A stretch of DNA of 64,000 nucleotides from contig VGZH01000005.1 of the NCBI GenBank assembly GCA_016872645.1, positions 1 through 64,000 on the forward strand, given 5' to 3'. Numbering within the stretch: the stretch's first letter is position 1; every line of letters starts with the position of its first letter. The translations under genes and the position numbers were made by a program. The DNA comes from Planctomycetota bacterium (GTDB taxonomy: Bacteria > Planctomycetota > Planctomycetia > Planctomycetales > Planctomycetaceae). This document shows positions 4,731 through 61,962 of this stretch, one piece after another. Below the pieces are notes generated by a model. The model saw only the letters and a list, made by a program, of their open reading frames with translations, ran no database searches and was not told where the DNA came from.

Positions 4731-4814
4731 CTTGTGACACATGCGGCTCGCGTGCGACGGGTCGGGGCACTTACCATGGAAGCGTCGTCGCACGCGAAGC
4801 GCGTGTGCCACAAG
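4731..4814. repeat. imperfect palindrome, 28-nt arms
   Basis: CTTGTGACACATGCGGCTCGCGTGCGAC (4731-4758) versus the reverse complement of 4787-4814, CTTGTGGCACACGCGCTTCGCGTGCGAC; 4 mismatches. Confidence 0.85.
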
Positions 4815-7065: not shown

Positions 7066-10000
7066 ATGTCGCGAACCTCGTTGTGCCTCGCCGTCTGCTT
7101 GTGTGTGTGCTCGCTGCTGGCGTGGGCTGACGACAAGCCGAACGGCAATCGGCTGACGTATCTCGATGAGCCGTGCAATCCGTATTACGTCCATCGGGAC
7201 TTTCCCAAGCTGACGACTCCGATGTGGGTCGGTGAAGAGGGGGTCGAGGCGGTCGTGATCCTCGGCATCGACGACATGCGCGGGCATGACAAGTGGGAGG
7301 CGTACCTCAAACCGATCCTGAATCGCTTGAAGCAAATCGACGGCCGCGCCCCGGTCAGCATCTTCACATGCTCGATTGATCCGAAGCAACCGCACTTGCA
7401 ACAGTGGTTGGAAGAAGGCTCGAGCCTGGAGATTCACACGATCGAGAACTACCCGTACCCGTATGTCCTCGACCGGCTCTGCCGGGAGTTTCCGTGGGTC
7501 GCGCCGAGCGACTGGTCGGCTCAGCATCTGCACCAGCCGAACAACCCCCAGACCGTCGAGGACTGGAAAGCGGCGCTCGACTGCACCGTCATCAAGCAGG
7601 GAGTTTTTTGCTTGGTCTTCCATCCCCACAACTGGATCAAGCCGGAGCAAGTCAACGAACTCATCGGCTACGCCGTCACCAAGTACGGCAAAAAGGCCAA
7701 GTTCCTGACGTTCAAGGACGCGGTCGAACGGCTCTACAAGAATGTCGCATTTAGTGGGTTGCGCGAGCCGCCGAAGGGCACTGATACGAATGTGCGCTTT
7801 TTGAATTGGGATCACGATGGTCATCTTGATGCTCTGACGCTTGGCGCGCGTTCGTATCGGATACGAGCATGGTCAGCGGCGAAGTATTCTTGGTTGAATG
7901 CCAATGTCTTGCTCTGGCCATTTGAGAAGACAACGACTTGGCTGAACAAGTTCGACGCACACGAGGTGTTACCGCCAACCGCCCCCAAGCCAATTGAAGG
8001 TCGCGATCATGGCGTCCGCTTGATCGACCTTTGCGCCGATGGCTACGACGACGTCGAGTTCTCGAATCACGAGCGTTACGGCATCTGGCTGCGGGGGTCG
8101 CTGGAGAAAGGCTGGTCGCGTGAGCTGCTCTCCGGCCAGCGTGGCTCGAAGCCAGCGAACGAAGAATTGCCGCCGATCGTGCGAGAGGATGGCTCGAACA
8201 ACGGCTTCTGGGTTCATGCGCGGAACCTCGTGTGGATGAACGAGGACACCGCAAAATCGAACGACTTGGTCGAATGCCAGTCGTTTGAGGAGCTGCTGGC
8301 CCGTGGGTCGGGCAAGAATGCCCAACCTACGGAAGACGGCCCGAAGTCTCCCGAAGAGTCGCTCAAGCTGATGCAGGTGAAGCCGGGCTATCGCGTCGAA
8401 CTGGTCGCCGCCGAACCGCTCGTGCTCGACCCCGTCGCCTTCGATTGGGGACCGGACGGAAAACTCTGGGTCGCCGAAATGGCCGACTACCCGCTCGGCG
8501 TTCCGGAAGAAGAATCGGGCACGGATAACACGGACGTCACGGAGAAGATCAACAAGAATGATTCCAACCCCAAGCCCCCCGTGAGATCCGCGTCCTCCGT
8601 GTCCCAAAATTTTGATTTCAAAAAGGGGGGCGGCCGAGTTCGCATCCTCGAAGACACCGACGGCGACGGGAAGTACGACAAGTCCACCGTGTTTCTCGAC
8701 AAGCTCAACTTCCCGAACGGCGTCATGCCGTGGCGCGACGGAGTGCTCATCTCCGCCGCTCCCGACGTGCTGTTCGCTCGCGACACGAACGGAGACAACA
8801 AGGCCGACGAAGTCAAAATCCTGCTGACCGGATTTGGCGAAGGAAATCAGCAGCACCGAGTCAACGGTTTTAGCTGGGGCCTCGACAACATGGTCCACTG
8901 CGCCAACGGCGACAGCGGCGGGTCAATCAAGGTCGTCGCTACCGTAGGGTCGGCTCCTGCCGACCAACCACGATCGACAAATTCTGAGCGGTCAGCAGGA
9001 GCCGACCCTACGCATGTCGGCAAGACGATCGACATTCGCGGCCGCGACTTTCGCTGGAATCCGGACACGGGTGAGATCGACCCGACGTCCGGACAAACGC
9101 AATTCGGGCGAAATCGAGACGACTTCGGCAACTGGTTCGGCAACAACAACGCGAACCCGATGTATCACTTCGTGCTCGACGATTATTACACCCGCCGCAA
9201 CCCGCACGTCGCGCCGCCCGATCCCAAGAAACACGTCTCGATCACGCCGGGACCGTCGCCGGTTTTTCCGATCAGCCGCACGCTCGCGCGGTTCAACGAC
9301 TTCGCGATGGCCAACCGGTTCACATCGGCGAACAGCGCGATGGTGTATCGGGACACGATACTGTTTGAGTCCAGAGACGAGAGTCCAGAGTTCAGAGCAA
9401 CGCCAAAGCAAGCGCCGTCCCCGTCTTCGCTCTCGACTCACCAGCACGTCTTTATTTCCGAACCAGTCCACAACCTGGTGCATCACGAGATCATGACGGC
9501 CGACGGCGTGACCTTCACCAGCCGGCGGCCCGACGACGAGCAGCAATCGGAATTCCTCGCGTCAAAAGACAACTGGTTCCGCCCGACGCAGATCAAGACC
9601 GGCCCGGACGGAGCGCTCTACATCGCCGACATGTACCGCCAAGTCATCGAGCACCCGCAGTACATTCCGCCCGCCATGCAAGAAAAGCTCGACCTGCGAG
9701 CGGGCCACGACAAAGGGCGGATTTATCGAGTCGTGCGGGTTTCTGAACCTCGACCCGCTGAGGATGCGAAAGCCAACGTGTGGCCGCTGAGCAGAGCGAA
9801 GCAAGAGCCTTTGAGCCGGTTTGACGAACTTTACGAGGCACTGCGGAGTCCAAACGGGACTGTCCGTGATTTGGCCCATCGACTGATCTACTGGAAGCGT
9901 GTCGACGCCGAAAAAAATGTCTTTGGTTTATCACTTCGCGAAAAAGATCCGATTGCCAGGCTGCATGTTCTGTCGATTCTCGATGGCCTGCGTCGCGTTG

Positions 10001-11931
10001 ATGCCTCCGAGCTTTCGCTGGCGCTGGGCGACTCGCATTCCGCAGTGCGTCGCAGAGGGTTGCAAGCGACCGAGAACTTCGACGGCAATCTGCCCGATCC
10101 GCTCATCAACCAGTTTTCGGCATTGAGCCGCGACCCTGATCCGTTCGTGCGGATGCAGTTCGCGTACACGTTAGGACATCCGAAATTCGCATCGCTGGGC
10201 AATGAACTCGGCAAGCTGCTGTATCGCGAGCGGGATGACAAATACCTCGTCGCAGCGGCGATGAGTTCGATTCATGCGAAGAACGTGGCCAGCGTCGTGG
10301 CGAACGTGTTTGAGTCCGCTGGCAAAGAGCCGTTGCCGCCGCAGCTAGCCAGTATGTTGCTCAACTTAGCGGCGACGCTTGGCGAGGATCAGGCGTTGCT
10401 CAGCTTGATCGAGTACGTCTTGAGCGGCGCGGCAACCACGGAAGCTCAGCCGGTGATGCTGGCGACGGTGCTGGAAACGCTGGATCGGCGCGGGACCTCG
10501 CTCAGCAAGCTCAGGGGAATTGGCAAGCAGCGACTTGCACAGGCGGAACAGCAACTGACCGAGAGGATCGAGGCGGCACGGAAACAGATTTCTGATTTCC
10601 AATTTCAGATTTCTAATGATCCCGCACAAATCGAAAATCACAAATCCCAAATCGAAAACGCCCTGCCTCTTCTTGGTCGCGTTCCCGATCAGCGTGGCAA
10701 CGATGCTCAGCTCGTCGGCGGTTTACTGGTTCCGCAAAGTCCGGTTCCGGCGCAGTCGGCGGCGGTCGCGACGCTCGCTCGGATCAATCATGCGGAATCG
10801 GCCACGGCCATGCTGAGCGGTTGGAGGACTTTTACGCCGACGCTGCGAGCGCAGGTGCTCGACGCGCTGCTCAGTCGAGCAGCGTGGACCGACAAGCTGC
10901 TCGACTCGCTCGAAGCCAAGTCGATCGCGCCGAGCGATATCGACGCGGTTCGGCGACAGCGATTGATCGCGCACTCCAATGAAGTGATCCGCACGCGAGC
11001 GGTGAACTTGTTGAAAGTCTCGGAGAATGCGGATCGGCAGAAGATCGTGGCCGAGTTCGCGGCGAAATTGAAAGAGGGCAACATCGCCGTTGATCCGACT
11101 CGCGGAGCGGACGTCTTCAAGAAGCGCTGCGCGACGTGTCACAAGTTGAAGGAGATCGGCACATCGGTTGGCTCGGACTTGATGTCGCTGACGGACAAAT
11201 CGACTGCCGCGCTGCTGACGGCGATTCTCGATCCGAACAAGGCGGTCGAATCGAAATTTCTGGCGTACACGGCGGTCAACAAGCAGGGGCAAACTTTCTC
11301 TGGCCTGATCGCGGCCGAGACGGGCAACAGCATCACGCTGATGGCCGCCGACGGCAAACAGCAGATGCTGCTGCGAGCAGACCTCGATGAGTTCATCAGC
11401 TCTGCGAAATCGTTCATGCCTGAAGGACTGGAGAAGGACATTTCGCCGAGCCAACTGGCGGATGTGATCGCATTCGTGCAATCCAGCGGCCCGACGCCGA
11501 AGAAGTTCGACGGCAATCACCCCGAACCCGTCACCGCAGAGGCGAGCGGTACGCTGCGATTGCTCGCCACCAACGCTGAAATCTACGGCAAGACGTTGGT
11601 GTTCGAGCCGTTTTTCAAGAACCTCGGCTACTGGCAAAGCGTCGATGACCGAGCCGTCTGGACGATCAACGTCACCAAGCCAGGGAAGCACTCGATCCGG
11701 TTGAACTACGCCTGCGACAACTCAACGGCCGGCAACGAGGTCGTGTTCGCAGTGGGTAACCAGTCCGTCAAGGCAAAAGTCGTCGGCACTGGGGCGTGGG
11801 AGAATTATCAAACCGCGATCCTCGGTGAACTCAAACTATCAGCGGGCCAACATCGGCTGACGGTGCGCGCGACCGAGTCGTTGAAAGATCACCTGATGGA
11901 TTTGAAAGAGCTGCGATTGGTGCCGGAGTGA
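7066..11931 (+). CDS. giant secreted PVC-type heme-binding dehydrogenase-like protein with N-terminal polysaccharide deacetylase-like region, beta-propeller, HEAT-like repeats and cytochrome c CATCH motif
   Basis: Signal peptide. VVILGIDDMRGHDKW...IFTCSID; VKPGYRVELVAAEPLVLDPVAFDWGPDGKLWVAEMADYPLGV; GADVFKKRCATCHKLKEIGTSVGSDL. Continuous 1621-aa ORF. Confidence 0.85.
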   Translation: MSRTSLCLAVCLCVCSLLAWADDKPNGNRLTYLDEPCNPYYVHRDFPKLTTPMWVGEEGVEAVVILGIDDMRGHDKWEAYLKPILNRLKQIDGRAPVSIFTCSIDPKQPHLQQWLEEGSSLEIHTIENYPYPYVLDRLCREFPWVAPSDWSAQHLHQPNNPQTVEDWKAALDCTVIKQGVFCLVFHPHNWIKPEQVNELIGYAVTKYGKKAKFLTFKDAVERLYKNVAFSGLREPPKGTDTNVRFLNWDHDGHLDALTLGARSYRIRAWSAAKYSWLNANVLLWPFEKTTTWLNKFDAHEVLPPTAPKPIEGRDHGVRLIDLCADGYDDVEFSNHERYGIWLRGSLEKGWSRELLSGQRGSKPANEELPPIVREDGSNNGFWVHARNLVWMNEDTAKSNDLVECQSFEELLARGSGKNAQPTEDGPKSPEESLKLMQVKPGYRVELVAAEPLVLDPVAFDWGPDGKLWVAEMADYPLGVPEEESGTDNTDVTEKINKNDSNPKPPVRSASSVSQNFDFKKGGGRVRILEDTDGDGKYDKSTVFLDKLNFPNGVMPWRDGVLISAAPDVLFARDTNGDNKADEVKILLTGFGEGNQQHRVNGFSWGLDNMVHCANGDSGGSIKVVATVGSAPADQPRSTNSERSAGADPTHVGKTIDIRGRDFRWNPDTGEIDPTSGQTQFGRNRDDFGNWFGNNNANPMYHFVLDDYYTRRNPHVAPPDPKKHVSITPGPSPVFPISRTLARFNDFAMANRFTSANSAMVYRDTILFESRDESPEFRATPKQAPSPSSLSTHQHVFISEPVHNLVHHEIMTADGVTFTSRRPDDEQQSEFLASKDNWFRPTQIKTGPDGALYIADMYRQVIEHPQYIPPAMQEKLDLRAGHDKGRIYRVVRVSEPRPAEDAKANVWPLSRAKQEPLSRFDELYEALRSPNGTVRDLAHRLIYWKRVDAEKNVFGLSLREKDPIARLHVLSILDGLRRVDASELSLALGDSHSAVRRRGLQATENFDGNLPDPLINQFSALSRDPDPFVRMQFAYTLGHPKFASLGNELGKLLYRERDDKYLVAAAMSSIHAKNVASVVANVFESAGKEPLPPQLASMLLNLAATLGEDQALLSLIEYVLSGAATTEAQPVMLATVLETLDRRGTSLSKLRGIGKQRLAQAEQQLTERIEAARKQISDFQFQISNDPAQIENHKSQIENALPLLGRVPDQRGNDAQLVGGLLVPQSPVPAQSAAVATLARINHAESATAMLSGWRTFTPTLRAQVLDALLSRAAWTDKLLDSLEAKSIAPSDIDAVRRQRLIAHSNEVIRTRAVNLLKVSENADRQKIVAEFAAKLKEGNIAVDPTRGADVFKKRCATCHKLKEIGTSVGSDLMSLTDKSTAALLTAILDPNKAVESKFLAYTAVNKQGQTFSGLIAAETGNSITLMAADGKQQMLLRADLDEFISSAKSFMPEGLEKDISPSQLADVIAFVQSSGPTPKKFDGNHPEPVTAEASGTLRLLATNAEIYGKTLVFEPFFKNLGYWQSVDDRAVWTINVTKPGKHSIRLNYACDNSTAGNEVVFAVGNQSVKAKVVGTGAWENYQTAILGELKLSAGQHRLTVRATESLKDHLMDLKELRLVPE
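8303..8330. repeat. palindromic element inside the 7066..11931 CDS
   Basis: GTGGGTCGGGCA-AGAA-TGCCCAACCTAC; its reverse complement matches the intergenic copy at 48529 (GTAGGCTGGGCACTCTTGCCCAACC). Confidence 0.8.
8517..8605. repeat. imperfect palindrome inside the 7066..11931 CDS
   Basis: gggCACGGATAACACGGACGTCACGG pairs with CCGTGAGATCCGCGTCCTCCGTGTCCC. Confidence 0.7.
8943..9012. repeat. near-perfect palindrome inside the 7066..11931 CDS
   Basis: CGTAGGGTCGGCTCCTGCCGACC (8943-8965) and GGTCAGCAGGAGCCGACCCTACG (8990-9012): 22 of 23 complementary. Confidence 0.95.
9367..9439. repeat. imperfect palindrome inside the 7066..11931 CDS
   Basis: GAGTCCAGAGACGAGAG near 9367, with CTTCGCTCTCGACTC ending at 9439 in opposite orientation. 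Confidence 0.6.
10587..10653. repeat. AT-rich imperfect palindrome inside the 7066..11931 CDS
   Basis: GATTTCTGATTTCCAATTTCAGATTT versus the reverse complement of AAATCGAAAATCACAAATCCCAAATC; strikingly AT-rich against a GC-rich gene. Confidence 0.75.
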
Positions 11932-11960
11932 CGGGAGAAATAGGATTTCCGCTGTCAGCG

Positions 11961-12012
11961 TTCGGCTCACGGCCATCGGCTGGGGTTGTTTGGCCGATCC
12001 CCGTGAGCCGAA
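11961..12012. repeat. palindrome, 12-bp perfect outer arms
   Basis: TTCGGCTCACGG (11961-11972) / CCGTGAGCCGAA (12001-12012), with inner ATCGGC/GCCGAT pairing. Confidence 0.85.
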
Positions 12013-12093
12013 AGCCATTGGCCGATTTCAGTTTTCCGAACGCTCGCTAGACTGTGGTTGACCTGACCACGAACTCAAACGAAAGACGTTGGA

Positions 12094-18148: not shown

Positions 18149-18153
18149 TCGGG

Positions 18154-18265
18154 GAGTGCGGTGTGTCAGCACCGCATTGGAATCTTTTTTTGTGAAGTCG
18201 ATTCGATCTCGACAAACAAATTGACCTGCAAAGCGATCCGGAGTGGTGCTGACACACCGCACGCC
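18154..18265. repeat. palindromic dispersed element, 18-bp perfect arms
   Basis: GTGCGGTGTGTCAGCACC (18156-18173) and GGTGCTGACACACCGCAC (18245-18262). Confidence 0.92.
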
Positions 18266-18277
18266 CAGGGTGCCATC

Positions 18278-19587: not shown

Positions 19588-19642
19588 CGGCTCTCGGCAA
19601 TCGGCTGCCTGCTTTCGGCCGAGAGCCGACAGCCGAGAGCCG
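19588..19642. repeat. CGGCTCTCGG/CCGAGAGCCG inverted repeat cluster
   Basis: CGGCTCTCGG at 19588-19597; CCGAGAGCCG at 19619-19628 and again at 19633-19642. Confidence 0.75.
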
Positions 19643-31663: not shown

Positions 31664-34600
31664 GTGATGCTCAGGGATTGGGAACGCCGGCTTGCCGAAA
31701 CCATGCTGTCTGATCGGCATCGTCTGCGGCAACAAATCCGTCAGCTTTGCGCGGCAGAGAAGGCCAAGCGGCCGAATGACTCGTTGCTGCCGAAGTTGGA
31801 AGAGGCGTTCCGTCGCTCGATCGAGCGGCGAGACAGCCGTGCGGCCAGCGTGCCGAAGATTGAGTTCGACTCGGAATTGCCAATCCTCGCCAAGCGCAGT
31901 GAGATCGAAGCCTCGATCCGAGATAATCAAGTAGTGATCGTCTGCGGCGAGACCGGTTCTGGAAAATCGACACAGTTGCCAAAGCTGTGCCTGTCGCTGG
32001 GGCGCGGCGTTTGCGGCTTGATCGGTCACACGCAGCCGCGACGCGTCGCCGCGCGGACGATTGCCGCCCGTGTCGCCGAAGAATTGAAGACGACGCTCGG
32101 TGCGACGGTCGGGTTCAAAATCCGCTTCACCGAAGCGACCCAGCCGAACACGCTCATCAAGTTGATGACCGACGGTGTGCTGCTGGCCGAAACTCGCAGT
32201 GATTGGTTCCTCGATCAGTACGACACGATCATCGTCGATGAGGCTCATGAGCGAAGCCTCAACATCGACTTCTTGCTCGGCTATTTGAAACGGCTGCTGC
32301 CGAGGCGACCGGATCTGAAAGTGATCATCACGTCGGCGACGATCGACGCAGCGAGATTCGCCGAGCACTTTGGATCGTCGAGTCATCCAGCTCCGATTCT
32401 GGAAGTTTCTGGCCGGATGTATCCGGTCGAAACCCGCTGGCGACCGGGAGGAGGGTCGCGTATCGAGGAGCGAGAAGCGAGAAATGAGGTCCCCGCTGTC
32501 CCACCTGCCTCTTCATTATCCCTCACCCCTCGCCTCTCACCTCTGACTGACGACCCGCAACAGGCGATCCTCGCAGCGGTCGATGAACTCGTCACCGAGG
32601 GTTTGTGGGACATCCTGATCTTTCAACCGACCGAGTGGGACATCCACGAGACGGCGAAGTTGCTGCGAGCGCGGTTCAACATCACGACCGGACGAAAGGG
32701 ACAAAAGGCTGATGTCGAGATTCTGCCGTTATACGCTCGGCTGACGCTGGCTGAACAACAGCGTGTCTTCGGGCCACGTTCCGGTCAGCGACGCATCGTC
32801 ATCGCCACAAACGTTGCTGAGTCCTCACTGACGGTCCCCGGCATTCGAGCGGTCATCGACACTGGCACAGCACGCATCAGCCGATACTCGGCACGCAGCA
32901 AGATGCAGCGTCTGCCCATCGAACCGATCTCGCAGGCGTCGGCCGATCAGCGCAAAGGACGTTGCGGACGCATTGGGCCGGGAGTTTGCATCCGGCTATT
33001 TGACGAGGCGGACTACAAGACTCGCGAGCAGTTCACTCCGCCAGAGATTCTGCGCACAAACCTTGCATCGGTCATCCTGCAAACGCAGTCGCTCAATCTC
33101 GGCGCGATCGAGGACTTCCCGTTTCTCGAACCGCCGAAGCCGACGGCAATTCGCGACGGCTACAAGACCCTGTTTGAACTCGGAGCGGTCAACGAGCGAA
33201 ACGAACTGACCAAACTCGGCCGCACGCTGGCGCGATTACCAGTTGATCCGCGAATCGCGCGGCTGATCGTTGCGGGACACGACGAGGGCTGCCTGAACGA
33301 CATCCTGATTATTGCCGCCGCACTGGAGGCTCAAGATCCGCGCGAGCGGCCGCTCGACAAACAGCAGGCGGCCGACGAAAAGCACAAGCCGTTTCAGCAC
33401 CCCAACTCAGACTTTCTGAGTCTTTTGAAACTGTGGGATTTCTTCCAGCACTTGAAGGAGACGCTCTCGAACAGCCAGGTTCGTAAAGCGTGCCTGCAAA
33501 ACTTTCTGAACTTCAACCGGCTCCGCGAATGGGCTGACGTCCACCGGCAGTTGGTCGAGTTGGCGAAGGAGAACGGTCTGAAAGTGGGGAAGCGTCAGTG
33601 GCCCGTGGTCCGTGGTCCGTTGGAATCGCCAATGCCGACTAGATCCCACGGACAACGGGCCACGGACAACGGATCATCCACGGCGATTCATCGTGCCTTG
33701 CTGACGGGTTTTCTCGCGAGCATTGCGAATCGCGAGAGCGAATCGTCCGAGTACACCGCCGCGGGCGGCATGAAAGCGGTCGTCTGGCCGGGATCGGGGA
33801 CGTGCGACTTAAAGCCGAAATGGATCGTCGCGGCGGAGCTGATCGAAACCAGCAAGCGGTACCTGAGGATGGTCGCACAGATCGACCCGGCCTGGATCGA
33901 ATCGCTGGCCGAGCATCTCGTCACGCGAACTCACAGCGAGCCGCATTGGGATCGAGCCGCCGGCTCGGCGATGGCGTTCGAGCGGGTGTCGTTGTCTGGA
34001 CTGACGATCGTGCCCCGTCGCAAAGTTCAGTTAGGTCGGATCGACGCCGTCACCGCACGGCGGCTGCTGATTCAACATGGCTTGGTCGAGCGGGATTTTG
34101 ACTGCACCGCGCCGTTCTTCATCCACAACACGAAGTTGATCGAGGAACTCGAAGCACTGCGAGTGAAGTCTCGCCGCGCTGACTTCTTGAAAGGCGAAGA
34201 GGCACTGCTGGAGTTCTACGAGCAGCGGATTCCTGCGGAGGTCGTCGACGGATCAAGCCTTCTAAAGTGGTGCAAAGCACCATTCCCGTCTCCTCTCACA
34301 AGGGAACAGGGGACCCGCGAACGTTCGCTCTTCCTCTCGCGCGGAGACCTGCTGAATCCCGAGCGTGCCGCGGCCACGGATACGGACTTTCCGGCGACGT
34401 TGAAGCTCAAGCACATTCACGTCCCGCTCGAATACAAGCTCGAACCGGGCGAGGCGGATGACGGGATCACGATCACCGTGCCGCAGGAGGGACTCAATCA
34501 AATCGACTCGCAGCGACTCGGCTGGCTCGTGCCGGGATTACTCGAAGAGAAAGTTATCGCGCTGATCAAGTCGCTGCCAAAAGAACTACGGCGGCTGTTC

Positions 34601-35767
34601 GTTCCGGTGCCGGAGACGGCGAAGACGGTCCTCAAGCAAATCAAGTTCGGCGAAGGGCACGTCAACGCGGCAGTTGTGGCAGCGCTCTCAAAGCTGAGCG
34701 GCCAGCGCATCGATCCCAGCGAAATTCGAGAGGCCGACTTGCCTCCGCATCTGCGAATCAGCGTCAAAGTCTTGGGGGCGGACGGCCAGACGCTCGGAGT
34801 CAGTCGCGACCTCGATCAACTACGCGGACAACTCGGCGCGAAGGCATCAGCAAGTTTCTCGGCCATCGACCACTCGCAATGGAATCGCGACGGACTGATC
34901 GATTGGGACTTTGACGTGCTGCCGCCGAGCGTTGAGCTCGAACATGGGGGCTTGAAGCTGAAGGGCTATCCGTCGTTGGTCGATCGGGGCGACAGCGTTT
35001 CACTGCGACTCGCCGATTCGGCAGAGCGAGCAGCGTTCGACACATGGCTCGGATTGCGACGACTGTTTGTCATCGCCGCCGCAAAGGAGTTGAAGAAGCA
35101 GGTGCAGCACTTGCCGGAGCTTGGCAAGTGGACGCTGCTGACGGCGACCTTACCGGACAAAGGACGGCTGCCGCAACAACTCATCGAGTTGATCGCGGAG
35201 CGGGCGCTGTTCGTGGGGCAGGTTTCCAGCCTGCCCCAAGTTTCGCGGACGAAGTCGCAGTTTCAAGCGCATGTCCGCACGGGGAGGTCGCACATCCCGT
35301 CCGCCGTACAAGACGTCATCAAGTCGATCGGCCCGTTGTTCGCCGCATACACGGAGGCTCGTCGCGCGATTGAAGGTTGTCGTTTGCCGTTCGCTCAAAC
35401 CGCTGTGGCGGATTGCCGAGAACAGCTTTCGCGACTGACCGAGGCTGGGTTTCTCACAACGACGTCATGGGATTGGCTGCAACAGTTTCCACGCTACTTC
35501 CAAGGCATCGCGCTGCGCATCAAGAAGCTCACTGCTGCTGGACAAGCTCGCGATCAACGCGCTGCGACCGATATCGAACCGCGTTCACGAAAACTGCTCG
35601 CGCGACTTGACGCCGCCAAGGAATCGGGCCGTCACGAACCGGAACTTGCGACCTGTCGTTGGATGCTGGAGGAACTGCGTGTGTCGCTGTTCGCACAAGA
35701 ATTGCGAACTGCGATCCCGATCTCGCCGCAGCGCTGGGACAAGCAGTGGGAAGCCGTGACGAAGTGA
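31664..35767 (+). CDS. hrpA: ATP-dependent RNA helicase HrpA-like (DEAH box)
   Basis: CGETGSGKSTQLPK, HTQPRRVAARTIAARVAEEL, VDEAHERSLNIDFLLGYLK, ITSATID, TNVAESSLTVPGIRAVIDTG, QRKGRCGRIGPGVCIRL. Confidence 0.92.
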   Translation: MMLRDWERRLAETMLSDRHRLRQQIRQLCAAEKAKRPNDSLLPKLEEAFRRSIERRDSRAASVPKIEFDSELPILAKRSEIEASIRDNQVVIVCGETGSGKSTQLPKLCLSLGRGVCGLIGHTQPRRVAARTIAARVAEELKTTLGATVGFKIRFTEATQPNTLIKLMTDGVLLAETRSDWFLDQYDTIIVDEAHERSLNIDFLLGYLKRLLPRRPDLKVIITSATIDAARFAEHFGSSSHPAPILEVSGRMYPVETRWRPGGGSRIEEREARNEVPAVPPASSLSLTPRLSPLTDDPQQAILAAVDELVTEGLWDILIFQPTEWDIHETAKLLRARFNITTGRKGQKADVEILPLYARLTLAEQQRVFGPRSGQRRIVIATNVAESSLTVPGIRAVIDTGTARISRYSARSKMQRLPIEPISQASADQRKGRCGRIGPGVCIRLFDEADYKTREQFTPPEILRTNLASVILQTQSLNLGAIEDFPFLEPPKPTAIRDGYKTLFELGAVNERNELTKLGRTLARLPVDPRIARLIVAGHDEGCLNDILIIAAALEAQDPRERPLDKQQAADEKHKPFQHPNSDFLSLLKLWDFFQHLKETLSNSQVRKACLQNFLNFNRLREWADVHRQLVELAKENGLKVGKRQWPVVRGPLESPMPTRSHGQRATDNGSSTAIHRALLTGFLASIANRESESSEYTAAGGMKAVVWPGSGTCDLKPKWIVAAELIETSKRYLRMVAQIDPAWIESLAEHLVTRTHSEPHWDRAAGSAMAFERVSLSGLTIVPRRKVQLGRIDAVTARRLLIQHGLVERDFDCTAPFFIHNTKLIEELEALRVKSRRADFLKGEEALLEFYEQRIPAEVVDGSSLLKWCKAPFPSPLTREQGTRERSLFLSRGDLLNPERAAATDTDFPATLKLKHIHVPLEYKLEPGEADDGITITVPQEGLNQIDSQRLGWLVPGLLEEKVIALIKSLPKELRRLFVPVPETAKTVLKQIKFGEGHVNAAVVAALSKLSGQRIDPSEIREADLPPHLRISVKVLGADGQTLGVSRDLDQLRGQLGAKASASFSAIDHSQWNRDGLIDWDFDVLPPSVELEHGGLKLKGYPSLVDRGDSVSLRLADSAERAAFDTWLGLRRLFVIAAAKELKKQVQHLPELGKWTLLTATLPDKGRLPQQLIELIAERALFVGQVSSLPQVSRTKSQFQAHVRTGRSHIPSAVQDVIKSIGPLFAAYTEARRAIEGCRLPFAQTAVADCREQLSRLTEAGFLTTTSWDWLQQFPRYFQGIALRIKKLTAAGQARDQRAATDIEPRSRKLLARLDAAKESGRHEPELATCRWMLEELRVSLFAQELRTAIPISPQRWDKQWEAVTK
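32456..32547. repeat. imperfect palindrome inside hrpA
   Basis: GAGGAGCGAGAAGCGAGAAATGAGG versus CTTCATTATCCCTCACCCCTCGCCTCTCACCTC. Confidence 0.6.
33598..33663. repeat. palindromic element inside hrpA
   Basis: GTGGCCCGTGGTCCGTGG (33598-33615) / CCACGGACAACGGGCCAC (33646-33663): 17 of 18 complementary. Confidence 0.88.
35214..35238. repeat. palindromic element inside hrpA
   Basis: TGGGGCAGGTT-TCC-AGCCTGCCCCA, encoding VGQVSSLPQ in frame. Confidence 0.8.
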
Positions 35768-51421: not shown

Positions 51422-52699
51422 ATGTATCTGCGAATGGCCAAACGAGTGCTGCTGGAAACCAACAAGCGGCTGGTCGCCAAGTTCCTGTGGAACATGGGGG
51501 TCAAAGGGACGCTGTCGGTCATCAAATACAAACGCCGGATGAAGAAAGGGCAATTCTTTCCGCCGTTCTTGTACGTCTCGATTCTCAACACCTGCAACCT
51601 GCGTTGCCAAGGCTGCTGGGTCGATGTCTCTGCCAAGCAAGAGAAGATTAGCCTCGACGCCTGGAATCGCCTCGTCCGCGAGGCCAAGCAGATGGGGAAC
51701 GTCTTCTTCGGCATCGTCGGTGGCGAGCCATTTATGCACCCGCAATTGCTCGACATGCTGGCCGCGCATCCCGACTGCTATTTCCAAGTCTTCACCAACG
51801 GCCACTTCATCACCGACGAGGTCGCTCGCGAGATGCGTCGCATCGGAAATGTCACGCCGCTGATCAGCGTCGAAGGGAGCGAGATCGTCAGCGACGAACG
51901 CCGCGGCCGTGGCGGAGTGCTCAGCAAGACCATGCAAGGGATCGAAGCCTGTCTGCGCAACAACCTGCTGACCGGCGTCTGCACCAGCGTCTGCAAAACG
52001 AACATCGACGACCTCGTTACCGAGAAATGGGTCGATCGCCTGATTGAGATGGGGGTGTTCTACACATGGTTCCACGTCTATCGCCCGATGGGCCCGGACG
52101 CCTGCCCCGATCTCTGCCTGACTCCGGAACAGCAGCTTCAAATCCGTAAGTTCGTCGTCGAGATGCGTGCGAAGAAACCGATCGCCATCGTCGATGCCTA
52201 CTTTGACGGCGAAGGCCAAGCCCTCTGCCCTGCCGCCACCGGCATCAGCCATCACATCAACCCGTGGGGCGGGATCGAGCCGTGCCCGATCATTCAATTC
52301 GCGAAAGAGTCGATCCACGACGAATCGCGCACCCTCGGCGAGAAGATCATGGGCTCGGAATTCCTGCGCGACTTCCGCTCGCTGGCCCAAAAGACAACAC
52401 GCGGCTGCATCGTGCTCGAACGCCCGGACCTGCTGCACAACCTCGTCGTGCTCCACGAAGCCAAGGACACCACCGCCCGCCAGACCGCGATGGCCGAACT
52501 GCAAGCGATGGTGACTCGCACGTCGCAATACAACCCCGGCCATGCGATACCAGAGAAGAGCTGGGCCTATCGCTTGCTCAAGCGCTACTTCTTCGCCGAC
52601 TTCGGCGTCTACGATGGCCACGATCACAGCGAAAGCGCCGCCCCGCGCAGGGTGGGTCAACCATCGGGTACCCCACCACGAGTCGAGACTCCGGCCTGA
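51422..52699 (+). CDS. radical SAM protein (HpnH-like/SPASM-type)
   Basis: YVSILNTCNLRCQGCWVDVSAKQEKISLDAWNRLVREAKQMGNVFFGIVGGEPFMHPQLLD; C-terminal Cys cluster. Confidence 0.88.
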   Translation: MYLRMAKRVLLETNKRLVAKFLWNMGVKGTLSVIKYKRRMKKGQFFPPFLYVSILNTCNLRCQGCWVDVSAKQEKISLDAWNRLVREAKQMGNVFFGIVGGEPFMHPQLLDMLAAHPDCYFQVFTNGHFITDEVAREMRRIGNVTPLISVEGSEIVSDERRGRGGVLSKTMQGIEACLRNNLLTGVCTSVCKTNIDDLVTEKWVDRLIEMGVFYTWFHVYRPMGPDACPDLCLTPEQQLQIRKFVVEMRAKKPIAIVDAYFDGEGQALCPAATGISHHINPWGGIEPCPIIQFAKESIHDESRTLGEKIMGSEFLRDFRSLAQKTTRGCIVLERPDLLHNLVVLHEAKDTTARQTAMAELQAMVTRTSQYNPGHAIPEKSWAYRLLKRYFFADFGVYDGHDHSESAAPRRVGQPSGTPPRVETPA

Positions 52700-52772
52700 T
52701 ACCTCGCGCCGAGTTCGCCCTCCTGCGGCCCTGTTCTTGGAATGGAGGGCCGCCCGATGGCTGGCTCACCCT
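52649..52772. repeat. composite palindrome spanning two convergent gene ends
   Basis: AGGGTGGGTCAACCATCGGG (52649-52668) versus the reverse complement of CCCGATGGCTGGCTCACCCT (52753-52772), 17 of 20; inner GCGGCCCT (52725-52732) / AGGGCCGC (52746-52753). Confidence 0.85.
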
Positions 52773-55700
52773 ACGGGTCTGCAGTTGCGTTCGGCACCGT
52801 TTGTAAATAGTGCCACACCGCTTCGAACTGTTGTCGAGCATCTCCATCGAGGATGTCTTTGACCTTGGTCGTGCGCCCTTCGGCGGCGAGCTTCGGCATC
52901 CGCGTGGAGACATCGTATCGCGGCGGATCGAGCGTGAATCGGCGGTAGAAGTCGTAGCGGATTCGCTCGCGCGTCAGCGCGAAGTTAATGCCCGGTGCGA
53001 GCAATGTGTTCTTATCGCCCGTCGGCGGCAGCGAGCCGATCGGATGACATTGTCGGCAATCGAGCATTCCGGCTCGTGTCGCTAGAACCTCGCCAATCTC
53101 AGCGAGATCGGGATCGGCGTTTGGTCGCGGCGGCGGATCGCTCGACAGGCCGTGCTCACGAGCGAGTCCTTCGGCCAGCGACTTCGCTCGCGCGGGGAAG
53201 TTCGGCATCCGCAGCTTCATCCACGGTCGCGGACGCTCGGCGATTTGACCGGAGAGCAGCGAATGAACCCAGGCCACGTGCAACTTTTCGCCAGCCCAAG
53301 TGAGATTCGGCAGAATCTCGGAAGGCCGGCCAGTCTCACCTTCCTCGGCCAGGATTTCAGGAAGCAAACTCATGCGTCCGTCGCGCGGATGGCAGACGGC
53401 GCATCGCAACTCGGCCACAAACCGGCGCGAAGTGGCGTCCGGCGTATCACTAGCGAGCGTTCGTTCGTCTGTTCGCAAGAACGCTTGTAAAACCGATCGT
53501 TGTGCTGGATTGAAATGGAATTCCGGAATACGCGTCGTTGAAGATCCGTGTTCGCCGTCGGTCAAGCAACCGTGAGCGACCAGCTTGCCGAAGACCGACG
53601 GCAAATGCGGTTGTGGCAGCGGTTCATTGCGCGACACGCGATGACACTGCCGACAGCCGAGCGATGCAAATAGCTTTTGCCCGCGTGCGGTGTCGCCAGC
53701 CGGAAGTTTCATTGGCGGCTGTTTTCCCTCATCAATCCGCTGTGTAATGACATTCGAAAGTGAATCCGCCTCCAGTTCGGTGAGGCCGAAGTCGGGCATT
53801 CGACTCCATGAGAAGTGACGCTGCGGCTGTTGCAGAAAGCGACTCAATTCACCGGGCAGAAATTTCTCGCGGACAAAATGCAACGACGTTCGCCATTCAG
53901 CCGGCGTCTCAGTTTGTGGGGCAAGTTGATGGCACCCGATGCAGCCGAGGTTCTCCCAGTGTTTTAGACCGGTCCTCAACGCAAGTTCCTCCGGTAGGCC
54001 CTCGATGCGCAACGAAGTGGGACCGGGATCGCCCTCGGCCGGGATGCCAAGTGAGATCAAATACGCGGCGACATCGGACGCTTGCTGCCGGTGCTCGTCG
54101 GTCTGCTTGTCGGGGAAGAGTTGCGGCATTCGAGCATCACTTCGCATGCGCTTCGGGTTCAGCATCCACTGCGCAATCCAATCTCCGCGCAGACGCGAAC
54201 CCACGCCGATCAAGTCGGGTGCCTCCGCATGCAACTCCGGCATCGACTCGCGCGAGGCGAGCACGTCGGCCGATACGCGATGGCAGCGGACGCATTGATG
54301 CCGCGCGAAGAATTCGCGACCCAGCCGAGCGGACTCGACCTCATCGGACAACGGTTCGCAAAACAACGAGGTGGGCGGAATCGGTTCGGTCTCAAAGTCC
54401 GCGCCGCTCCAAAGCAGCCGCAACGCAGCCGATTGATCGGCGACGACTTGTTGCCTGATCTTCAATCGGCTGTGCCCGCGCGGCAGTTCGATCTCGCGAG
54501 GCTTCTCGTCCGACGATCGCCAGACGATTTGATCGCCGACCGAAACTTCGACATCTGGGCCGCACTCCGCCGAGAGGCGATACTTGCCGCGACGCGATGC
54601 GACGAGGAATCCGCTGGCAACGATCTCGCGCACTCCCGCAACTTCGCGTGGCTCAAACTTCCAGGCGGCCATTCGCCGCACTTGAGGCAAGCTGCCAGCT
54701 TGTCCAACGAAATCGCAACGAATACCGGCGACTAAAAGCTGTTGCTCGTCGGCAGTCAGTAATCCAGGCCGCGGTCGTGGTGGCTTACGATCGAATTCAA
54801 ACTCTTCGGATCGAACCCCGTGGATCGTCGCGTCCAATCGCCGCTCAATGGACTGACCGAGCAAACTTTTTAGCGTCATCTGAATCGACAGTTGATTCAC
54901 CGGCCGCATGTCGTTCAGTTCGAGAAATACGCCATCGCCACCCTTGAGATTGCGGACGTGCGTCGCACTGAGCACCTCGACTTCGTCACGTCCCTCCTCG
55001 CGCGGGTTCGAGACTTTCAGTTCCGGCGAGCCATACGCGGCCGACCAGCGGTAGTTCCAACGCTGCACGCGGTAGTTGTCGATGTCCTCAGCCATTTCGG
55101 CATTCAGCGGATCGCTGAACCGAAGCAGGACACCGTTGCGATGCGACTCGAACGACACCGGCACGTCGAGCGGTTGTTTGTTGGTTGCTCGCACTCGTTG
55201 AAAGCAACCGTCCTTCGCCGCGTTGCTGACCCAGCCGCGCAGGCCACTGACAAACAAGTGCCCGTTGCTGGGATGAAACCGGCCGCGCATCACCCCCGAT
55301 TCGAATGACAACGGCAGAGGGACGGTGGCTCCTTGAACTGTCATTGTGCCTACAACACTTTCACGCGGAATGAGGAATACGCGGCTGGTTCCATAGGACA
55401 AATGCAACATCTGTCCGCCGAGCGGTCCCCATTGACCCGGTGGAACCCAAACTTGGCCGCCGCACGAGTTGTCCTGCAATCGCGGAATCCAACAGAGCGG
55501 CTGCGCGAACTCCGTCGGTGCCGGTGAGCGATGAGCCGACGGCGCGTAACCGTGAAAGCCGCCGCGCACCGCTTCAAAGATCGCCGAGCCAGGGGTCCAT
55601 TCTCCCTCCTGTGGGGCAACCGTAAGAATCTCCTGGCCGCCGCGACCAACCGGCCCGATGCCGATCCCATTCGCATTACGAAAGCCGGTCGCAACAACCT

Positions 55701-61869: not shown

Positions 61870-61886
61870 AGGATTGACTTTGGAGG

Positions 61887-61952
61887 GTGGTGTGTCAGCA
61901 CCGCTGTGAATCTACGGTGGGAAAATTCCCAAGCGATGCTGACACACCGCAC
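61887..61952. repeat. palindromic dispersed element, third location of the GTGCGGTGTGTCAGCACC family
   Basis: GTGGTGTGTCAGCACCGC (61887-61904) and GCGATGCTGACACACCGCAC (61933-61952). Confidence 0.88.
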
Positions 61953-61962
61953 TCCAAAAGGG

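Follow-up and report, generated by a model that had tools for sequence, protein, structure and literature searches.

Why should a single reading frame in a planctomycete contain five repeat-like segments, what are these segments, and how did they come to occupy the places in which we find them? The window, by which we mean the whole 64,000-nt stretch of DNA that was analysed, is contig C5 of a draft genome of 5.76 Mb, and all genomes compared with it are also draft assemblies. The insertion of palindromes in frame is already known from Rickettsia RPEs and from intragenic REPs; new here are the scale, the mixture of element classes that share these loops, and a likely source within the same genome for several of the inserts. 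Our reading, to which we assign a probability of roughly 0.8, is that palindromic elements have inserted in frame at multiple sites, landing widely and surviving where a loop tolerates the peptide that they encode.

Five in-frame segments in the host gene

The host gene and the segments within it are as follows.

7066 to 11931, plus strand: host gene, encoding a PVC-type heme-binding protein of 1621 aa with a DUF7133 propeller, HEAT-like repeats and a CxxCH domain
8301 to 8332, minus strand (S1): single GTAG-tagged REP; CTAC at 8327-8330 is the tag on the minus strand
8516 to 8605, unstranded (S2): palindrome whose arms are tandem 9-nt words (CACGGANNN)
8943 to 9012, unstranded (S3): REPIN of inverted GTAG REPs, at 8944-8965 on the plus strand and 8990-9011 on the minus strand
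9366 to 9440, unstranded (S4): decayed palindrome of tandem 7-nt words (GAGTCCA GAGACGA GAGTCCA GAGTTCA ... CTCTCGACTC)
about 10583 to 10659, unstranded (S5): tandem 7-nt words of the ATTTCTG/AAATCGA type in inverted arrangement

Scans against Pfam and NCBIfam matched the protein to DUF7133 (E 9e-151) and, above cut-off, to TIGR02604 and TIGR02603, with a weak HEAT_2 match below its own cut-off. An intein was rejected as a candidate because these scans returned no intein family and the inserts measure about 12-38 aa. An initial sequence-only reading had held that the 1621-aa frame runs without a break through five palindromic segments; the frame is indeed open through all five, close to where that reading had placed them. 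S1 lies in the linker before the propeller and encodes the peptide RGSGKNAQPTED.

The palindromy of the segments is uneven. S3 forms a 70-nt palindrome with 23-nt arms (8943-8965 and 8990-9012) that are 96% complementary, and its DNA fold is far stronger than that of dinucleotide shuffles (z = -8.9), followed by S1 (z = -3.0) and S2 (z = -2.6). S4 and S5, as they stand in the window, fold no better than such shuffles (z = -0.2 and -0.6); compared with plain base shuffles, S4 gave P = 0.04 and S5 was reached in 0/200. The description of the segments as palindromic thus holds beyond chance for S1, S2 and S3 and is weak for S4 and S5 in the window, so that the case for these two consists of their tandem 7-nt structure and of the strong palindromes that relatives carry at these sites.

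It had also been expected that each segment would have other copies in the genome, which is clear for S3, graded for the others and not the case for S2 in the sequence sampled. The own genome was sampled in stretches amounting to 2.46 of 5.76 Mb, with some searches made in 1.26 Mb, and simple pattern counts are too blunt for degenerate words. S3 has seven matches at four places in the whole genome (a high copy number being typical of REPs and not strictly defining), and S1 recurs at six other places in the 1.26 Mb sampled. For S5 there is one match of 97% over 30 nt and the rest are weaker, for S4 the matches reach 78-83% only, and for S2 no copy was found in the own-genome sample of 1.26 Mb.

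A structure model of aa 430-1211 (mean pLDDT 77, pTM 0.80), which begins just downstream of S1, places S2, S3 and S4 between propeller strands at pLDDT below 50; other low-confidence stretches occur in the same model, at about aa 728-753. The prediction that the segments map to surface loops therefore fits S2, S3 and S4, which lie in low-confidence model loops, but not S5, modelled mostly as a continued helix.

Related species fill the same sites with different elements

Orthologs from the same genus are 72-79% identical to the host gene, several of them with the same downstream ORF, and align closely with it except at the five sites and in the N-terminal third. Codons flanking the inserts show omega values of 0.15-0.22, that is, purifying selection; the genes are therefore under selection, and decay of pseudogenes was rejected on these values. 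The five sites are mostly short or empty in the 24 orthologs that come from other genera (for example DYPLGIDGKGKPGGRVR at S2 and YDDDLFGSEFVGNSFVSEPVHN at S4). A few of these orthologs carry palindromic inserts (L095 at S2, L094 and L095 at S3, L115 at S4), and some have longer sites without clear palindromy (L098 and L105 at S4, L102 at S2). By this alignment all five segments are insertions, with sister species holding different elements at the same sites, and the segments were not conserved as protein in these distant orthologs.

The contents of each site vary within the genus. At S1, read at the DNA level, the window has a GTAG REP, L007 a CGCTCGGCGCGGGTCTC palindrome and L015 a CGGCGAGCCGGGG palindrome; the site is empty in L004 and L006, and the S1 element is also absent from the orthologs of other genera. 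S2 holds the 9-nt-word element in the window, L006 and L007, and two unrelated palindromes in L004 and L015. The palindromes at S3 differ between the window, L004 and L015, with GTAG types in L006 and L007, and the S3 boundaries, as read from the sequences, vary by several nt between species. The S4 element differs between the window, L004, L006, L007/L008 and L015, and a word family related to it is inserted at S4 of L115 and at S2 of L095. At S5 the tandem words differ between L004, L007 and the others (AAATC, AATTGCA and AAGTGCA types), and in L004 the copy is not a palindrome. Most of the congener elements at the five sites are near-perfect palindromes, mostly never reached in 200 shuffles. 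No target-site duplications were readable, filled and empty sites being too diverged to decide.

The sequence-only reading had proposed repeated independent insertion. Insertion of palindromes in frame has indeed been repeated, but S2 and S5 are not recent independent events: the S2 element is common to L006 and L007, and S5-type inserts to most congeners, and both are therefore older than this species. As a separate observation, the matches L004 and L005 (G002:C112 and G003:C341) have identical coordinates, scores and frames, and the draft genomes G002 and G003 probably share contigs; G003 carries an additional, different ortholog, L015.

The same pattern is seen in a second gene of the window.

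31664 to 35764, plus strand: hrpA-like gene for a DEAH-box helicase (DUF3418)
33594 to 33667, unstranded: in-frame palindrome of tandem 7-nt words within the hrpA-like gene; sister species have other palindromes here

Palindromes that vary with the species occur at four sites of the hrpA-like gene (aa about 279, 646, 874 and 1192), among them GTAG REPs, a GCGCTCGGCGCGGG family and heptamer words. In G002 its ortholog (L247) has a GCGCTCGGCGCGGG palindrome and then heptamer words, adjoining at one site, an arrangement that would follow if inserts serve as landing pads. Two further genes were also compared; in one of them, at C36:5889-8423, the congener alignments are interrupted near aa 436-450 and 676, which would be consistent with more inserts.

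Across 2.46 Mb of the own genome we found 201 palindromes with a score of at least 14, of which 35 lie inside genes, though 84.5% of the sequence is coding; this depletion suggests that most copies arising within genes are selected against. Within the window, a palindrome family (GAGTGCGGTGTGTCAGCACCGC) at 18152-18266 and 61879-61958 has many recurrences in the sampled own genome, and several other families are represented at 4731-4814, 11958-12015, 19588-19642 (7-nt words) and 52646-52775.

In the mechanism that we propose, short palindromic mobile elements would land throughout the genome and intragenic copies would mostly be lost to selection, the survivors being those in frame within a loop that tolerates extra peptide. 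The few tolerant loops would be recolonised repeatedly by the families active in each species, and an existing insert may turn its loop into a safe place for further elements to land.

RAYT loci as a likely source of GTAG-tagged inserts

The hairpin of S3 (GGTCGGC-TCCT-GCCGACC, -9 kcal/mol) has its GTAG tag, at 8944-8947, at the hairpin foot, and an intergenic copy with the same layout of an inverted REP pair was found elsewhere (L002). A Pfam search of the own genome returned one Y1 transposase, which scores 187 bits on the RAYT equivalog NF047646; beyond this full-scoring gene, the NCBIfam RAYT model gave two weak partial matches only.

L093 1381 to 2031: own-genome RAYT, with the S3 REP on both sides (1356-1377 and from 2042)

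S3 thus equals the REP that flanks the resident RAYT. No S1-type REP was found flanking the own RAYT, and S2, S4 and S5 have tandem-word arms, with no GTAG-tagged hairpin and no match to RAYT-flanking REPs.

Congener genomes have 3 to 16 RAYT-like matches each, apart from G001 with none, and we compared thirteen inserts with 30 RAYT loci. Together with the window, S3 therefore presents three species with three REP families, each around a RAYT of the same genome. The S4 insert of L006, from G007, matches the REPs to either side of a G007 RAYT and also those of a G002 RAYT, and the S1 insert of L007 has a partial, cross-genome match near a G003 RAYT, so that one of the five near-RAYT insert matches is to the RAYT of another genome. 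On the evidence of these sequences S3 belongs to a RAYT-REP system. TnpA-REP proteins cut single-stranded GTAG hairpins (PMC8266576), and we infer that the resident RAYT, as a transposase of the Y1 HuH type that acts on REP hairpins in single-stranded form, would have moved the S3 element.

Heptamer words, alternative explanations and known repeats

S4 and S5 are built differently, from tandem 7-nt words in inverted arms, and a period of 7 was found in 14 of the 17 tandem-armed palindromes in the 1.26 Mb of own genome. None of the 30 RAYT loci has heptamer words. The S4 word family, as an exact palindromic pattern, is present in genomes whose labels are Acidobacteria, Bacteroides, Prevotellaceae, Planctomycetota, Pedosphaera, Anaerolineae, Gemmatimonadaceae, Alphaproteobacteria and Actinomycetota, and four of these genomes have three to five copies. 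Some of the palindromes are internal to ORFs that extend for more than 180 aa to either side (L215, L221, L236 and L238). The cultivated-looking genome of Bacteroides sp. 519 has five near-identical GAGTTGA palindromes (L218, L227, L230, L232 and L234).

Since a period of seven is not divisible by three, a perfect 7-nt repeat is translated into one and the same 7-residue repeat in every frame, and a stop-free word is therefore open whichever frame receives the insert; words of the GAGTTGA type contain TGA and have no open frame, whereas those of the GAGTCGA type are open. The S5-type peptide ISNFKSQ-ISDLKSE has heptad spacing. In the own genome 8 of 21 heptamer palindromes lie inside genes, against 27 of 180 others, an enrichment that is only suggestive because a simple script did the gene calling and some of the entries counted as inside resemble coding palindromes of the ordinary kind. 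The literature searched, coverage of which was incomplete, yielded no account of palindromic heptamer elements within genes. We put forward tentatively, and with more doubt than belief, that heptamer palindromes may be a separate class of dispersing element across phyla, extending loops or helices and pre-adapted to lengthen proteins.

Several other explanations bear on these data. S4 and S5 might be immobile, having grown in place within variable loops by replication slippage and hairpin template switching: slippage typically yields tandem repeats, heptamers are found at none of the RAYT loci compared, and the S5 words differ between species. Against such growth, the word families recur in parts of the own genome that are not linked to one another, and in many phyla an exact palindromic family of words has multiple copies per genome; we regard it as a reasonable possibility for these two segments, if a somewhat doubtful one. 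That the segments are ordinary hypervariable linkers with chance palindromy would suit the window copies of S4 and S5, which fold no better than shuffles, but it is already contradicted for S3 by the z of -8.9 and by identity with a RAYT-flanking REP, and the congener elements were mostly never reached in shuffles. Simulated sequence matching the 1.26-Mb sample contained no palindrome reaching score 14 against 122 observed, and chance was rejected as very improbable.

The repeated occupation of identical positions in several species is what would be expected if elements homed to DNA motifs in the loops, recurrence then reflecting the choice of target and not tolerance. Such sequence-specific targeting is unlikely, given that several unrelated element classes share the sites, that the S3 boundaries shift between species, that elements are strongly depleted from genes overall, and that inserts lie in model loops. 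We favour wide landing with survival in tolerant loops.

S3 has in common with the GTAG REPs and REPINs of RAYT systems its tag and hairpin, the inverted pairing, and a RAYT flanked on both sides. In known RAYT-associated systems some REP copies also lie within ORFs (PMC3733652, PMC3116915, PMC8266576), and in one reported instance, Xanthomonas recB, different REPs occupy roughly the same position (PMC3733652). Unlike in those systems, several families are found here per gene, loops are recolonised in sister species, and the S3 family is of very low copy number and mixed with tandem-word palindromes. The Rickettsia parallel drawn from the sequence alone is apt in that RPEs too are palindromes in frame within functioning genes, but the present elements are probably not RPEs: they are set apart by the GTAG of S1 and S3, where the intragenic repeats RPE-4 and RPE-6 of R. 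conorii are of the CGTC class (PMC3733652), and by the RAYT linked to S3. S4 and S5 resemble the heptanucleotide tandem repeats of cyanobacteria and xanthomonads (PMC4692102, and the Calothrix repeats cited there) in being dispersed tandem 7-nt units of degenerate words; unlike these, they have inverted arms around a spacer, lie sometimes in frame in genes, and use other words.

Mobile DNA can supply linker sequences in such proteins, which is a trap for annotation and for homology searches. As a likely source (RAYT and REPs), the mobile unit and its landing site in a protein can be matched within one genome, and in several species, it becomes testable how often protein segments arise from small mobile DNA, which loops are tolerant, and whether any such insert is retained for a function. 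Small mobile repeats can thus be caught rewriting protein loops.
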